DNA of 58,232 bases from Candidatus Woesearchaeota archaeon (GTDB taxonomy: Archaea > Nanobdellota > Nanobdellia > Woesearchaeales > GW2011-AR9): the NCBI GenBank assembly GCA_018696595.1, contig JABHQW010000006.1:1-58232 (forward strand), given 5' to 3'. The position numbers were made by a program, and so were the translations under genes. Below the pieces are notes generated by a model. It was not told where the DNA came from and ran no database searches. It saw only the letters and a program-made list of their open reading frames with translations. Position 1 is the stretch's first letter. Every line of letters begins with the position of its first letter. This document shows, one piece after another, positions 52,765-57,896 of this stretch.

Positions 52765-53400
52765 ATGGAAGAAAAGAGCCATCAATCAGAAATACTGACA
52801 ATCATGTTTACTGATATTGTAGGTTATACTTCCACCACAGCAAGATTAAACAGAAAAGAGTTTAATCAACTGCATGATGTTTTTGATAACATTTCTCTAC
52901 CAATATTTAAGAAACACTCAGGTAACGTAATTAAGAAAATTGGAGATTCTTTCATGGTCACATTTAAATCGGCCACAGAAGGAGTTTTGTGCGGAATAGA
53001 TTTACAAAAATCGTTTCAAAAACATCACAAAGAAAATCAATCAAGAAACCCCCTTAGAATTAGGGTCGCCCTACATTCGGGAGAAGTTCTTTTGAGAGAC
53101 AATGATGTTTATGGAGATGCAGTAAATTTATCTGCCAGAGTTGAAGGCCTAACACAAGCAGGAGAGATTTACTTTACAGAATCAGTTGCCCAATCAATGA
53201 ACAAGAATGAAATTGATTTTTTAGATTTAGGATACACCCCAGTTAAAGGTTTTTCTGAACCAATAAGAATCTTTAAAGTTAAATGGAAAAGAGATCAAAG
53301 AAGAATCCTTTGGGGTTGGATTTTGGAAACATTTCTGATAGTTTTATTAATTAGTGTAATAATTGTCGCCGCTGGTTTTTTGTATAAGACTTATTTTTAA
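52765..53400 (+). CDS. Class III adenylate/guanylate cyclase, tail-anchored (first of pair)
   Basis: 211 residues. A lone cyclase homology domain with all catalytic residues: metal Asp in FTDIVGYT near 14, second metal Asp and substrate Lys in IKKIGDSF near 57, adenine-contact Asp, transition-state Asn and Arg in DVYGDAVNLSARVEG near 114-127. A membrane helix at the very C-terminus (about 186-207) anchors it with the catalytic domain in the cytoplasm. The Lys/Asp pair suggests cAMP rather than cGMP. No sensor domain is fused. It would work as a homodimer or with its neighbour at 53439. Confidence 0.92.
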   Translation: MEEKSHQSEILTIMFTDIVGYTSTTARLNRKEFNQLHDVFDNISLPIFKKHSGNVIKKIGDSFMVTFKSATEGVLCGIDLQKSFQKHHKENQSRNPLRIRVALHSGEVLLRDNDVYGDAVNLSARVEGLTQAGEIYFTESVAQSMNKNEIDFLDLGYTPVKGFSEPIRIFKVKWKRDQRRILWGWILETFLIVLLISVIIVAAGFLYKTYF

Positions 53401-53438: not shown

Positions 53439-54095
53439 TTGGCAAAAAAAAATAAATCAGAAGTATTAACAGTAATGTTTGTGGACATAGTTAGTTACAC
53501 CAAAACTACCGCCAATCTTGATAGAGAGAACTTCAATTATTTACATGATGTCTTTGACACTATTTGCCATAAGTTCTTCAAAGAACATGAAGGAAAAGTA
53601 ATTAAGAAAATAGGGGATGCTTTTTTAGTAACATTCAAATCTGCGACTGAAGCGGTTCTTTGTGGAATAAATTTACAGAATTCCTTTTATGAGTATAATC
53701 AAAAACACAGAAAACAAGACCCATTAAAAATTAGGGTTGCATTACATTCAGGAGAAATTTTGCATAGGCATGGAGATATTTATGGAGATGCAGTAAATAC
53801 TGCTGCCAGAGTTGAAGGAATAACAAAAGCAAATCATGTTGTTTTCAGTGAACCAGTTTATGCTGCCATGAACAAGAATGAAATGGATTATATTTATCTT
53901 GGTGCAAAAAAACTGAAAGGTTTACAACGTCCGTTAAAAGTGTTTAGAGTAAAAACAAAAATGGACGAAATCCTAGATAGAAAAAAGAGGACTAGAAAGT
54001 TTTTCAACAAAATAAAAAGAAAAATTGTTGGGGTTGTTGTTTTAGGGGTTGTTGTAATAGCAATATTTCTTTTAGTAAAGTATTTGTTTGGTTAG
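53439..54095 (+). CDS. Class III adenylate/guanylate cyclase, tail-anchored (second of pair)
   Basis: 218 residues, a clear paralogue of the preceding protein with the same layout: FVDIVSYT, IKKIGDAF, DIYGDAVNTAARVEG and a C-terminal membrane helix (about 193-215) after a basic stretch (RKKRTRKFFNKIKRK). All catalytic residues are present. The start is a TTG (53439-53441); tttttaag at 53407-53414 lies 28 bases ahead, so it would be a leaderless TTG start with its own promoter, 38 bases after the first cyclase. Sequence divergence between the two shows an old duplication. Confidence 0.9.
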   Translation: MAKKNKSEVLTVMFVDIVSYTKTTANLDRENFNYLHDVFDTICHKFFKEHEGKVIKKIGDAFLVTFKSATEAVLCGINLQNSFYEYNQKHRKQDPLKIRVALHSGEILHRHGDIYGDAVNTAARVEGITKANHVVFSEPVYAAMNKNEMDYIYLGAKKLKGLQRPLKVFRVKTKMDEILDRKKRTRKFFNKIKRKIVGVVVLGVVVIAIFLLVKYLFG

Positions 54096-54127
54096 AAAAA
54101 TCAGTTTGGTAACTTCTGAGTAGTAAA

Positions 54128-54136
54128 CTATATAAA
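54128..54136 (+). promoter_or_regulatory. TATA box of bacillithiol-like operon
   Basis: ctatataaa centred 27 bases before the ATG of the small ORF at 54159. Confidence 0.6.
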
Positions 54137-54158
54137 CTGACCCCATTTTTTATTGAAA

Positions 54159-54236
54159 ATGGACAAACTTAACCACAATAACGAAGAAACTAAAAAATAC
54201 GTTTTGTTAATAACAACTTTTAGGAGTAGGTTCTAA
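54159..54236 (+). CDS. Leaderless small ORF (25 aa) overlapping bshA start
   Basis: The ATG at 54159 lies exactly at leaderless distance from a good TATA box, and the 25-codon frame ends in TAA whose last base is the first base of the bshA ATG (TAATG at 54234-54238). The sequence is polar in the first half (Asn, Glu, Lys) and ends in hydrophobic and Arg residues; no cysteine. The ribosome binding site of bshA (AGGAG) lies within its last codons. It could be a leader peptide that couples translation of bshA or a small protein in its own right. Confidence 0.55.
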   Translation: MDKLNHNNEETKKYVLLITTFRSRF

Positions 54237-55399
54237 TGAAATCTAGTTTAGATTTGGCATATCTTTTGTATTGTAGACCCCATTTAGGGGGATCGGGAGT
54301 AATGAGTTTAGAACTAGCAAAACAAATGAGGAGAAAAGGACACAATGTGACCTTAATAAGTTACCCTGGAACGTTTCTTAGTTCAGAAGAACAAGAGATG
54401 GGAATTAATTTGGTTCAAACGCAAGCAATTAATTATCCTTGTTTTAAGTCAGAACCTTTTTCTGAGACCTTTGCTTCAGTAATTGCTAATTTAGGAGAAG
54501 AAAAAAACTTAAACATTATTCATGCAAATTATGCAATTACTCATGGACTTGCAGCAACAACAGCAAAAAGAATATTAGAAAGAAAAGGCAAAGATTTGAA
54601 AGTTTTAGTTACTAGTCACGGATCAGACATTCATACAAATGGGCACCACCATTTATTAGCCCCAACAATTGAACAAATTTTGTGGGAATCAGATGCAATC
54701 TCTTTTGTTTCAGAATCTTTACAAACAGAAGCAGAAGAACTATTTCCTTCAATAAAAAACAAAGGAGAAGCTATTTATAATTTTGTAGACACCGACAGAT
54801 TTCGTTTTAGTGAAGATGAAAGAAGAAGTATTAGATCTGCAGAAAAAATTCCAGATGGCGCCACAGTAATATACCATGCCTCAAATTTTAGAGAACTAAA
54901 AAATGCCCAAGATCTTATAAGTATTGCAATTAATGATAAAGAAGAAGAGGATGCAAGGTTTTACTTTTTAATGGTGGGCGATGGTCCCGAGAAAACTATC
55001 ATGGAAGATAAAGTTAGATCATTAGGACTTGAAAAATATTTTCATTTTGTCGGTAAAAAAGAAAATGTAGTGCCGTATATTAATGCTTCTGACATTGTTG
55101 TTCTCCCTTCAAAAAGGGAATCTTTCGGACTGGTTTTATTAGAAGGAATGGCTTGTGGAAGACCAGTAATTGGATCAAGAGTTGGTGGAATTCCCGAAGT
55201 CATCCAAGATGGAGAAAATGGGTTTTTATTTTCCAAAATTGATGAGCTATATGTCTTTGCAGATCAAATCAGAAGAAATACAGATTTAGGAAAAAGGTTT
55301 GGAGAACAAGGCAAATTAATGGCCAGTTCAAAGTTTTCAGTTGATAAAGTTGTAGGACAGTATGAAAGTATATATTATAAAATGGTGGCGGGCAATTAA
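54236..55399 (+). CDS. bshA: BshA-like GT4 glycosyltransferase (GlcNAc-malate synthase)
   Basis: 387 residues, GT-B fold. It follows bacterial BshA closely: GGSGVMSLELAKQMRRKGH near 18, HANYAITHG near 100, TSHGSDIHTNG near 123, YNFVDTDRF near 181, HASNFRELKNAQD near 212, VGDGPE near 243, the EX7E region KRESFGLVLLEGMACGRPV near 290 and RVGGIPEVIQDGENGFL, and the end QYESIYY. BshA joins GlcNAc from UDP-GlcNAc to L-malate, the first step of bacillithiol synthesis. It is followed two bases later by a PIG-L deacetylase. Assignment to BshA rather than another GT4 enzyme rests on this likeness and the operon. Confidence 0.85.
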   Translation: MKSSLDLAYLLYCRPHLGGSGVMSLELAKQMRRKGHNVTLISYPGTFLSSEEQEMGINLVQTQAINYPCFKSEPFSETFASVIANLGEEKNLNIIHANYAITHGLAATTAKRILERKGKDLKVLVTSHGSDIHTNGHHHLLAPTIEQILWESDAISFVSESLQTEAEELFPSIKNKGEAIYNFVDTDRFRFSEDERRSIRSAEKIPDGATVIYHASNFRELKNAQDLISIAINDKEEEDARFYFLMVGDGPEKTIMEDKVRSLGLEKYFHFVGKKENVVPYINASDIVVLPSKRESFGLVLLEGMACGRPVIGSRVGGIPEVIQDGENGFLFSKIDELYVFADQIRRNTDLGKRFGEQGKLMASSKFSVDKVVGQYESIYYKMVAGN

Positions 55400-55401
55400 A
55401 G

Positions 55402-56064
55402 ATGACAAATTTACAATTACCTTCAAATTTACTTGCAATTATGGCCCATGAAGATGATGAGGTTGGTGGATGTGGTGGCCTTTTAATAAAGAATCAACAA
55501 CTAGAAGGAGATTCACATGTAATTTGTTTTGGTGGTTCTGACCCAAAACGAGCAAAAGAATTTGAAGCTGCTTGTAAATTAATGGGAGTTTCAAGTCATC
55601 AACTGTTGGGTTATAGTGAACAAGATTATGACCAAAACAAATTAGAAAGAATAATTCAGATAAGAGATATTATTCTGAGAATAAAACCAGACTATGTTTT
55701 AACACATCGGTCTGCTGGTGATTATCATTTAAATCACCAAACAGTTTCAGAAATAGTAAAAAGATCCGCAATTATGGCAAATACTGCCAAAGAAGGAGTT
55801 AGAGTTAAAGGAATACTTTATACTGAGACACATTCACTTCATTCAGTAGTGCATGAATTAGTAGATGTAAGTGATGTCCAAGAATCTATTGAACAAGCAC
55901 TTCTATGTCATGAAAGTCAAATTAGTAAAAACGATGGATATTATTTAAAGTTAATTAGCAAAAGAAATAGTTTAAGAGGTTTACAAAACGGAACCCATTT
56001 TGCTGAAGCTTATCAATTTGAACCATTAGAATTAGTGGGGAATTTTCATAAGACTATAAAATGA
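55402..56064 (+). CDS. PIG-L family deacetylase (BshB-like)
   Basis: 220 residues, zinc-dependent N-deacetylase fold. The zinc and base motif is AHEDDEVGGCGG near 14 (AHPDDE is usual) and the third ligand is in SAGDYHLNHQ near 112. Family members remove acetyl from GlcNAc conjugates; in the bacillithiol pathway BshB turns GlcNAc-malate into GlcN-malate. Placed between the BshA-like and BshC-like genes, with two-base spacing before and a four-base overlap (ATGA) after, it is the likely step-two enzyme. Confidence 0.85.
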   Translation: MTNLQLPSNLLAIMAHEDDEVGGCGGLLIKNQQLEGDSHVICFGGSDPKRAKEFEAACKLMGVSSHQLLGYSEQDYDQNKLERIIQIRDIILRIKPDYVLTHRSAGDYHLNHQTVSEIVKRSAIMANTAKEGVRVKGILYTETHSLHSVVHELVDVSDVQESIEQALLCHESQISKNDGYYLKLISKRNSLRGLQNGTHFAEAYQFEPLELVGNFHKTIK

Positions 56065-57179
56065 AACAATTAGCAGATTTATTAAAATCAGAAGAAGGAA
56101 CAGAATTCTTAAGGGAAAATGAAATTTATACTCATCCTGCTCAGTTTACAACCCAATTAAAAAAACCAACAGTTTTGTTTGGTGCAAAACAAGACCCAAT
56201 TGATAAGCCAGTAGTTTATGCAGGACAACAAATATATTTAGATTATACTGCTTCAGTTAGAGATAAAATCCAATTATTAGCAGAACTGGATGGACCAATT
56301 GACAGTTTTTTCTTATGGTTAGACACTGATAGAAGCGGATCAGATAAACTGATTAGTAAAATCATTTGGCCAGTGGATGAAACACAAGTAAGTATTAGTA
56401 TATCGACAGGGAAAAATAAAAATATAGAAACGCGGTTTGTAAAATTAGATCAAAAACAAATAAGAAGTTCTATAGATCGGCTAGGTACATTAATCCGACA
56501 AACCAACCCATCTCAGAAAGCTATTGAAAGTTATTCCGCATTAAGAAAACTATTTTCTGAAACCAATGCGAGTACTTTAGCCGAACTTAATTTAGAGGTC
56601 ACTAGTTTTTTAGTTGAAGATTATCTTCAAGTAAGCATAAATAATATAATTGCTTCTCAATTAATTCAAGACCCTATAGTTCTTGATGCCCTTAAATGTT
56701 TAATATCTCAAAGAGAAGGTGTCATAGAGGCATATAATAATAGTGTTCAAAAATTAGTTGAGTTAGGCATAGACCCACAAGTTAGAAAGCTTCCCCCATT
56801 TTACTTGCCCCTACATTTTTCTTGTGACCAAGACAATACTAGGGTCAATCTAACTTATAATAAAAAGGGAGAAGACCATTATGCCGCGGGCGAATGTAAA
56901 TGTGGTAAAACTTTTGAGTTCTTTATTGGTTCTAATACTAACGTTAATTTAGATGAAGTTGTGTCAACAAACAGATGGAGTCCTGATGTGACTTTGCCCT
57001 TATTACTACGAGAAGGTATTAGTGGTGCAATTGTTGGAAAAAGTTCTGCTTTGTATGGAATTGTTTTAAATCAAGTTCTCAAAGAAGCATTATCTAAAAC
57101 GCCAGTTCCAATGTTAGTGCCAAATTCTTCTGGAGACACAAATCCACAAAGTTTAATACATAATTATATAAATCAATAA
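56061..57179 (+). CDS. BshC-like protein (putative cysteine-adding step)
   Basis: 372 residues. The N-terminal third has VVYAGQQIYLDYTASVRDKI (51-70) followed by FFLWLDTDRSGSDK (about 83-96), matching the BshC core pattern of GQQ and then an Asp-rich motif after a beta strand; the C-terminal part WSPDVTLPLLLREGISGAIVG near 315 matches the BshC stretch before its last helices. A central helical region may be its coiled coil. It is clearly shorter than bacterial BshC (about 540) and has a Cys group, C255, C279, C281 (CKCGK), like a zinc knuckle. BshC adds cysteine to GlcN-malate. Likeness is partial; context carries much of the call. Confidence 0.6.
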   Translation: MKQLADLLKSEEGTEFLRENEIYTHPAQFTTQLKKPTVLFGAKQDPIDKPVVYAGQQIYLDYTASVRDKIQLLAELDGPIDSFFLWLDTDRSGSDKLISKIIWPVDETQVSISISTGKNKNIETRFVKLDQKQIRSSIDRLGTLIRQTNPSQKAIESYSALRKLFSETNASTLAELNLEVTSFLVEDYLQVSINNIIASQLIQDPIVLDALKCLISQREGVIEAYNNSVQKLVELGIDPQVRKLPPFYLPLHFSCDQDNTRVNLTYNKKGEDHYAAGECKCGKTFEFFIGSNTNVNLDEVVSTNRWSPDVTLPLLLREGISGAIVGKSSALYGIVLNQVLKEALSKTPVPMLVPNSSGDTNPQSLIHNYINQ

Positions 57180-57194
57180 ATAATCCTAAATCAA

Positions 57195-57896
57195 ATGAAA
57201 TTACTCTTAATTATAGCGCACCCGGACGATGAAATTTCATGTGCTGGAACAGTTGAAAAACTTAAAAAGGAAAAGGGAACTTGCAAGATTGTATGTTTCA
57301 CTGGAAATCCCATTAGAAATTCTGAATTAAAAGAAAGTTGTAAAAAACTAGGTGCAACATTTGAGACTTTTAATATTAAGGAAAATGAATTAAAAATTAA
57401 GATCCACAATTGTTATGAAAAATTAGTGAAGATTATTAGAGATTTCAAACCAGAGATTATCATTACTCAAGATCCAAAAGATTACCACCCCCACCACAGA
57501 TGGGTTTACAATATTGCAAAAGAAGCTGTAGAGTTTGCATCACATGATAAAAAAGGCCATACCACTCCTCTTTTCTTAAGTATGGAGACAAATAATTTAT
57601 TTCATGCTCCCGACATTTTTGTTGATATTTCAGAGGAGCAAAAGTTTAGAAATGAATTAATAAAAGTATATTCTTCAGAATTACAAAAAGAACATAAGAA
57701 AAATTATTACATAGAGTTTTGTGAAGCAAAATCAAGATTAAGAGGAGTGCAAGTTGGAACAGAACACGCGGAAGCATTCATTGTGAATAAACAACCAATT
57801 CACGGAAACTTTTATTCAAAATCAAGAGTAACAACTAATTTAAAACAATTAAACACTTTATCTTTAAATTCTTCTACAATACAAAATAAAGAATAA
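57195..57896 (+). CDS. Second PIG-L family deacetylase/amidase
   Basis: 233 residues with canonical motifs: AHPDDEISCAG near 8 and QDPKDYHPHHRW near 98. It ends in a Thr/Ser/Asn-rich tail of about 30 residues. In bacillithiol-making bacteria a second PIG-L protein (BshB2 or Bca) serves as spare deacetylase or cleaves bacillithiol conjugates, so this is the likely role here. It lies 15 bases after the BshC-like gene, last of the operon; its end overlaps the convergent transporter gene by 23 bases. Confidence 0.85.
   Translation: MKLLLIIAHPDDEISCAGTVEKLKKEKGTCKIVCFTGNPIRNSELKESCKKLGATFETFNIKENELKIKIHNCYEKLVKIIRDFKPEIIITQDPKDYHPHHRWVYNIAKEAVEFASHDKKGHTTPLFLSMETNNLFHAPDIFVDISEEQKFRNELIKVYSSELQKEHKKNYYIEFCEAKSRLRGVQVGTEHAEAFIVNKQPIHGNFYSKSRVTTNLKQLNTLSLNSSTIQNKE

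Follow-up and report, generated by a model that had tools for sequence, protein, structure and literature searches.

We describe a four-gene operon in the window analysed here, a stretch of 58,232 nucleotides that is an entire contig (JABHQW010000006.1) of the genome of a Candidatus Woesearchaeota archaeon (GCA_018696595.1), and we read the operon, with rather more confidence than doubt, as encoding a glucosaminyl-malate pathway of the bacillithiol type whose amide-forming step has been exchanged among unrelated enzyme types. As the original prediction had it, four co-directional enzyme genes follow one another with intergenic gaps of 2, −4 and 15 bases; they occupy positions 54236-57896 of the forward strand and encode a BshA, a PIG-L deacetylase, a BshC-like protein and a second PIG-L deacetylase (genes 1 to 4). 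From the identities of these genes, their arrangement as an operon, its recurrence in relatives, the homology of gene 3 to BshC and the exchange of the third gene, we infer the activities, the malate acceptor, cysteine and a thiol function. BshA would transfer N-acetylglucosamine (GlcNAc) from its uridine diphosphate conjugate (UDP-GlcNAc) to L-malate or to some similar hydroxy acid, giving GlcNAc-malate; a PIG-L enzyme would remove the acetyl group to leave a free glucosamine amine; and the BshC-like protein would then link this amine, most probably to cysteine, through an amide bond, yielding bacillithiol or a close analogue as a cytoplasmic thiol. The second PIG-L protein would be either a partner of the first deacetylase or an amidase acting on conjugates, and sister archaea would rely on an ATP-grasp or a Mur-type ligase for the amide step. 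If this is true, a complete BshA-BshB-BshC-like operon would provide a reduced DPANN genome with a redox buffer by a route of known type.

Gene 1 (54236..55399; 387 residues), a glycosyltransferase of family GT4 predicted to be a UDP-GlcNAc:L-malate transferase, is by its sequence a BshA. The strong BshA likeness first claimed for it is borne out by a score of 307 bits on TIGR03999, above the curated equivalog cut-off of 273.7, with the next family at 130 bits; solved BshA structures match it over its full length (PDB 3mbo, E 6e-67), and it retains 50 of 71 positions that are near-invariant among 26 bacterial BshAs, against 26 in two unrelated GT4 proteins. In a tree, the check originally proposed, gene 1 stays in a BshA-like clade, grouping with seven other Woesearchaeales BshAs (support 91/83; seven rows 100/99) as sister to all other BshAs, bacterial and archaeal; very long outgroup branches leave the root of this tree unsure. 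Mycothiol synthesis by MshA-MshB-MshC likewise proceeds by transferring GlcNAc, removing its acetyl group and ligating cysteine, but the MshA model gives gene 1 only 75.9 bits against a cut-off of 462.5, and the operon has no MshC-like protein.

Gene 3 (56061..57179; 372 residues) encodes a BshC-like protein without the coiled-coil domain, predicted to be an amide-forming, cysteine-adding enzyme. It has no meaningful sequence match in Pfam, NCBIfam or PDB; the curated BshC models PF10079 and TIGR03998 leave it below their cut-offs, with no match at E 1 or 0.1, and PF10079 finds nothing in any of nine bshA-bearing Woesearchaeales genomes. Searches with gene 3 alone likewise recovered no relative, either by peptide patterns in contigs of 84,980 species or in the 40 nearest genomes. 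A hidden Markov model (HMM) of Asgard BshC, built from 26 sequences drawn from PF10079-positive genomes of the phylum of a Heimdallarchaeota locus (PF10079 matches in 57 of 119 genomes there), nevertheless scores gene 3 at 48.9 bits over residues 156-300 (E 1.8e-17 as a single comparison), while the best of 300 shuffles of gene 3 reached 5.8 bits. Against a background of 2,421 open reading frames (ORFs) gene 3 ranked second (E 4.3e-14), ahead of most true bacterial BshCs; one background match, at 12.2 bits, is a mini-BshC of the kind described below. In agreement with the HMM, blastp of gene 3 with the Heimdall BshC gives E 6e-10, and a profile of gene 3 and its homologue from a second Woesearchaeales genome (G176) aligns with Asgard BshC in hhalign at Prob 96.5 and E 7e-10, colinear across 328 columns. 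Asgard BshC in turn matches the solved BshC 4wbd at E 4.5e-27 and bacterial BshC at Prob 99.9. This bridge is needed because gene 3 and bacterial BshC, when compared directly, give too weak a signal alone (about 0 bits by HMM; P 3e-4 and Prob 40 for the two-sequence profile).

The match leans on a Cys region, in that the Cys knuckle of gene 3 alone gives 21.5 bits on the Asgard HMM. As the sole cause of the match, the knuckle can be rejected in part: 13.1 bits are left when it is masked, and residues 156-245 alone give 15.8. We conclude from these comparisons that gene 3 is a genuine remote relative of BshC. The BshC likeness first proposed for it holds at this level, through the Asgard proteins, and stops short of family membership: gene 3 is BshC-like, because it falls below the curated cut-offs, has no coiled coil and departs from some invariant residues. 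Asgard BshCs, its nearest recognisable relatives, have the Cys group in common with it but are about 550 residues long and have both the coiled-coil region and the invariant Glu. Many genomes in the phylum of the Heimdallarchaeota locus encode a divergent BshC bearing a Cys knuckle (L112, L115-L143); two genomes of the phylum have copies of bacterial type (280 and 258 bits).

The original prediction took this extra Cys group (C254 ... C279, C281; 56820..56903) as a hint that something other than cysteine is added. By blastp and HMM alignment it is the counterpart of the Asgard BshC Cys knuckle, whose C314 and C338 are invariant in a 16-sequence Asgard alignment, and it is absent from the closest homologue of gene 3, in G176. 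Being common to Asgard BshC and lost in G176, the group was probably inherited from an archaeal BshC and is no sign of a new substrate.

Comparison across the Woesearchaeales, sampled at one genome per species with many of the genomes incomplete, so that absence from a genome is weak evidence, revealed that bshA is rare in the order (9 of 353 genomes) and that its neighbours differ in the third position. A search for the cluster in other DPANN genomes, as first suggested, recovers the same gene set (bshA, the BshC-like gene and two PIG-L genes) in one other Woesearchaeales genome, G176, which belongs to a second family and whose BshC-like protein is 24% identical to gene 3 overall. In four genomes from four families (G130, G265, G449 and G476), bshA and PIG-L are followed instead by a gene for an ATP-grasp protein of about 380 residues, with a second PIG-L gene on the opposite strand in G265. 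G452 has a PIG-L gene, a gene for a Mur-ligase protein (nearest to cyanophycin synthetase) and bshA, then nucleotidyltransferase, epimerase and aminotransferase genes; bshA in G105 and G139 is without PIG-L, BshC-like, ATP-grasp or Mur-ligase-like neighbours. The same gene association is seen in bacteria, in clustered bshC-bshB-bshA operons.

ATP-grasp and Mur ligases form amide bonds. The occupants of the third-gene slot in sister Woesearchaeales are unrelated in sequence to gene 3, and the presence in one slot of three unrelated types of C-N bond-forming protein (BshC-like, ATP-grasp and Mur-type) therefore points to an amide-forming third step on a deacetylated sugar; as a genomic argument, this exchange is the best evidence here for such a step. 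ATP-grasp copies above 600 bits occur in no other genome among the 353, a confinement to which we attach no statistic, since the four bshA genomes carrying the protein supplied the sequences for the profile. The ATP-grasp protein matches named families only weakly, and none was found in viral contigs. More distant copies in G144 and G475 adjoin PIG-L genes with no bshA. Of the distant ATP-grasp relatives, that at L148:689-3422 is flanked by PIG-L on both sides and that at L149:708-2610 has PIG-L on one side, with no bshA at either, as though PIG-L and ATP-grasp together served more generally to attach an acid to a deacetylated sugar.

We entertain, as a tentative proposal on the doubtful side of even, that Woesearchaeales produce a whole family of glucosaminyl-malate amides by a pathway whose ligase is an exchangeable module (a minimal BshC, an ATP-grasp or a Mur-type enzyme), different lineages adding different acids and the products including undescribed low-molecular-weight thiols or other cofactors. 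As a separate observation, a two-part Lrp/AsnC-like regulator gene is divergent from bshA in three Woesearchaeales genomes (L018:6449-7537, L012:5265-6302 and L008:6817-7767).

The G452 neighbourhood raises the question of whether these genes instead modify a cell-surface glycan or glycolipid, with the GT4 enzyme, sugar deacetylases and an acyl-adding enzyme decorating a polymer. Its nucleotidyltransferase, epimerase and aminotransferase genes would suit such a role, as would the bshA genes of L011 and L078, which adjoin other glycosyltransferases. The original prediction had itself looked to nucleotide-sugar genes around the cluster in relatives as an adverse sign; they accompany it in one relative, G452, there with PIG-L, Mur-type and bshA genes, and the G452 BshA lies outside the clade of the window. 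With the clusters of the window, G176, G449, G130 and G265 standing outside glycan gene clusters, that of G476 among glycogen-type genes (a storage polymer), and a BshA above its cut-off and a BshC relative left unexplained by any surface role, we regard this alternative as improbable.

Both PIG-L genes encode recognisable deacetylases, as originally described (PF02585, E 3e-18 and 3e-22): gene 2 (55402..56064; 220 residues), of BshB type, carries the zinc motif AHEDDE ... YHLNH, and gene 4 (57195..57896; 233 residues) carries AHPDDE ... YHPHH. They score 66.8 and 80.1 bits on PF02585 (cut-off 28.2) with the zinc ligands HxDD and HxxH intact in each, BshB1 is the closest NCBIfam model for both, and gene 4 matches the structures PDB 2ixd (E 2e-12) and BshB 6p2t (E 3e-11). 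In a PIG-L tree gene 2 forms a pair with the second PIG-L encoded at the ATP-grasp locus in G265 (43% identity, support 90/93), while gene 4 falls nearest to PIG-Ls from G476 and G176 and near those of the ATP-grasp operons. A recent duplication giving rise to genes 2 and 4 is excluded, each grouping with different relatives.

How far gene 3 might act as a BshC was judged from the residues common to all of 26 Asgard and 10 bacterial BshCs. Gene 3 and the homologue from G176 retain Gln57, Asp90, Gly326 and Tyr332, together with Lys69 if a one-residue gap is allowed; Gln57 closes a GQQ motif (residues 55-57; 56223..56231) and is Gln in all 36 BshCs, the window and G176. An invariant Glu is replaced in gene 3 by Asp95.

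Several other observations weigh against a bacillithiol-type pathway. At the site of the BshC G-P-x-E-x-x-Y motif gene 3 reads GKSSALY (residues 326-332; 57036..57056), so that the Glu of all 36 BshCs is Ser329; the G176 homologue also has Ser, and GKSS is a new motif common to the two. Gene 3 ends before the C-terminal helical coiled coil, described as a dimerisation domain (PMC4360819), and the conserved Gln-Glu pair of that region is absent; with the coiled coil and the invariant Glu both lost, the protein may be inactive or unable to add cysteine. Two AlphaFold2 predictions of gene 3, one from its sequence alone and one aided by five rows of bacterial BshC, are uninformative (predicted local distance difference test scores of 34 and 36). 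Genes 2 and 4 reach 62.8 and 76.8 bits on BshB1, below its cut-off of 182.5 (BshB1/BshB2 models TIGR04001, TIGR04000), and by that measure are classed as PIG-L proteins, not BshB. The bacilliredoxin BrxA/B (PF06491) was not found in the host genome at E 0.01, nor above cut-off in the nine bshA genomes. The host genome has no Ldh_1-type malate/lactate dehydrogenase; it does have a malic-enzyme-type gene, which could serve as a malate source. Finally, an archaeal thiol review records bacillithiol as detected in no archaeon (PMC7278568).

Part of this evidence would suit a pathway with the same logic that adds an acid other than cysteine to glucosaminyl-malate and thereby makes an aminoacyl- or acyl-glucosaminyl-malate serving a different purpose (as osmolyte, metallophore or cofactor): the losses from gene 3, the lack of a detected bacilliredoxin across the nine bshA genomes, and the exchange with ATP-grasp and Mur-type ligases, which elsewhere attach various amino acids. 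BshA and BshC outside the Woesearchaeales group serve bacillithiol, however, and gene 3 keeps the BshC residues from Gln57 to Tyr332 named above, and we consider this outcome rather unlikely. In the bacillithiol-type pathway that we prefer, cysteine is the likely acid, with the identity of the amino acid as the weakest link because the invariant Glu is lost.

Another possibility is that the pathway has decayed and gene 3 is a degenerate, inactive remnant of BshC, as its strong divergence, its truncation and the change of Glu to Ser might suggest. We hold this to be very improbable. The open frames are intact and codon use is ordinary for the genome; the Ser and the GKSS motif recur in a second family despite the low overall identity of the G176 homologue; and a third relative, a fragment at a contig end in G120, carries the motifs AGQQxYLDY and DRSGSD. 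Intact frames, ordinary codon use and motifs kept in G176 and G120 argue that gene 3 is conserved and not decaying.

Set beside the bacterial bacillithiol pathway (Firmicutes, Bacteroidota, Deinococcota and others), the operon holds a homologue of each of BshA, BshB and BshC, with BshA above its cut-off, but differs in its short and altered BshC relative, its two PIG-L genes, its DPANN host and the bacilliredoxin that was not found. The earlier claim that this archaeon makes bacillithiol or a related thiol thus retains its genetic footing, in that a single operon combines BshA with two deacetylases of BshB type and a relative of BshC, while bacillithiol itself is not established, because gene 3 fails the curated BshC models, lacks the coiled coil and has the invariant Glu replaced.

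The open literature that we searched, with most subscription papers outside its scope, contains no report joining bacillithiol with Woesearchaeota and none of a BshA/BshC pathway in DPANN, in line with the novelty first claimed. The 2020 archaeal thiol review, the only paper in that literature to link bacillithiol with DPANN, places BshA/BshC homologues mainly in Asgard, and in the passages covered its remarks on DPANN concern other thiol genes (PMC7278568). A 2015 review gives BshC activity as unshown in vitro and its mechanism as unknown (PMC4360819). Tractable comparisons for BshC would come from a 372-residue form that has neither coiled coil nor invariant Glu, and from the ATP-grasp and Mur-type proteins that stand in its place in relatives; if the ATP-grasp protein performs the step with ATP and cysteine, the logic of the pathway would be confirmed before BshC itself is solved.

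A further short form came to light upstream of bshA in Verrucomicrobiota-type genomes and one cyanobacterial genome (L094:8175-8960, L095:7501-8277, L096:1799-2569, L098:853-1620 and L099:3405-4214): a protein of about 258 residues with no Pfam match, reading GQQPCGFFPKRFLxAK ... DHDPRET ... GAxEQxY, which aligns with bacterial BshC in hhalign (Prob 88, P 2.8e-6) and from these motifs looks like a mini-BshC. Verrucomicrobia have been listed with no documented or predicted low-molecular-weight thiol (PMC6282198).

The DPANN-type host first suggested is confirmed by gene content. The closest archaeal BshA relatives among named genomes are Candidatus Woesearchaeota and Nanoarchaeia assemblies (L020, L021, L022 and L026), and the window encodes an archaeal-type TYW1 along with a MiaB-like-B methylthiotransferase; because of the BshA relatives and the TYW1, we place the host, on sequence grounds, in the Woesearchaeota group of DPANN. 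G449, G105, G130 and G476 belong to the same family or order as the host genome. The host genome is 1.19 Mb (completeness 97%, contamination 0.4%), that of a tiny archaeon with a probably symbiotic lifestyle. A recent foreign origin of the operon is rejected by composition: base composition of the four genes is close to the window average, though the first PIG-L gene is low in third-position GC content (0.14 versus 0.225, standard deviation 0.02), the other operon genes being less low.

Position 54159, originally given as the start of the operon, proved to be the ATG of a 25-codon putative leader ORF (54159..54236) whose stop overlaps the bshA start at 54236 (TAATG). A TATA-like element, actatataaac (54127..54137), lies about 26-27 bases upstream of the leader ATG. 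The window (54127-54236) and G449 (L016:790-847) are alike here: in each, a TATA-like element precedes by about 26 bases the ATG of a very short ORF, the stop of this ORF overlaps the start of bshA, and the ORF is a possible leaderless leader peptide. Directly upstream of the operon lie two adjacent class III adenylate/guanylate cyclase genes (52765-53400 and 53439-54095), both with a C-terminal hydrophobic stretch.

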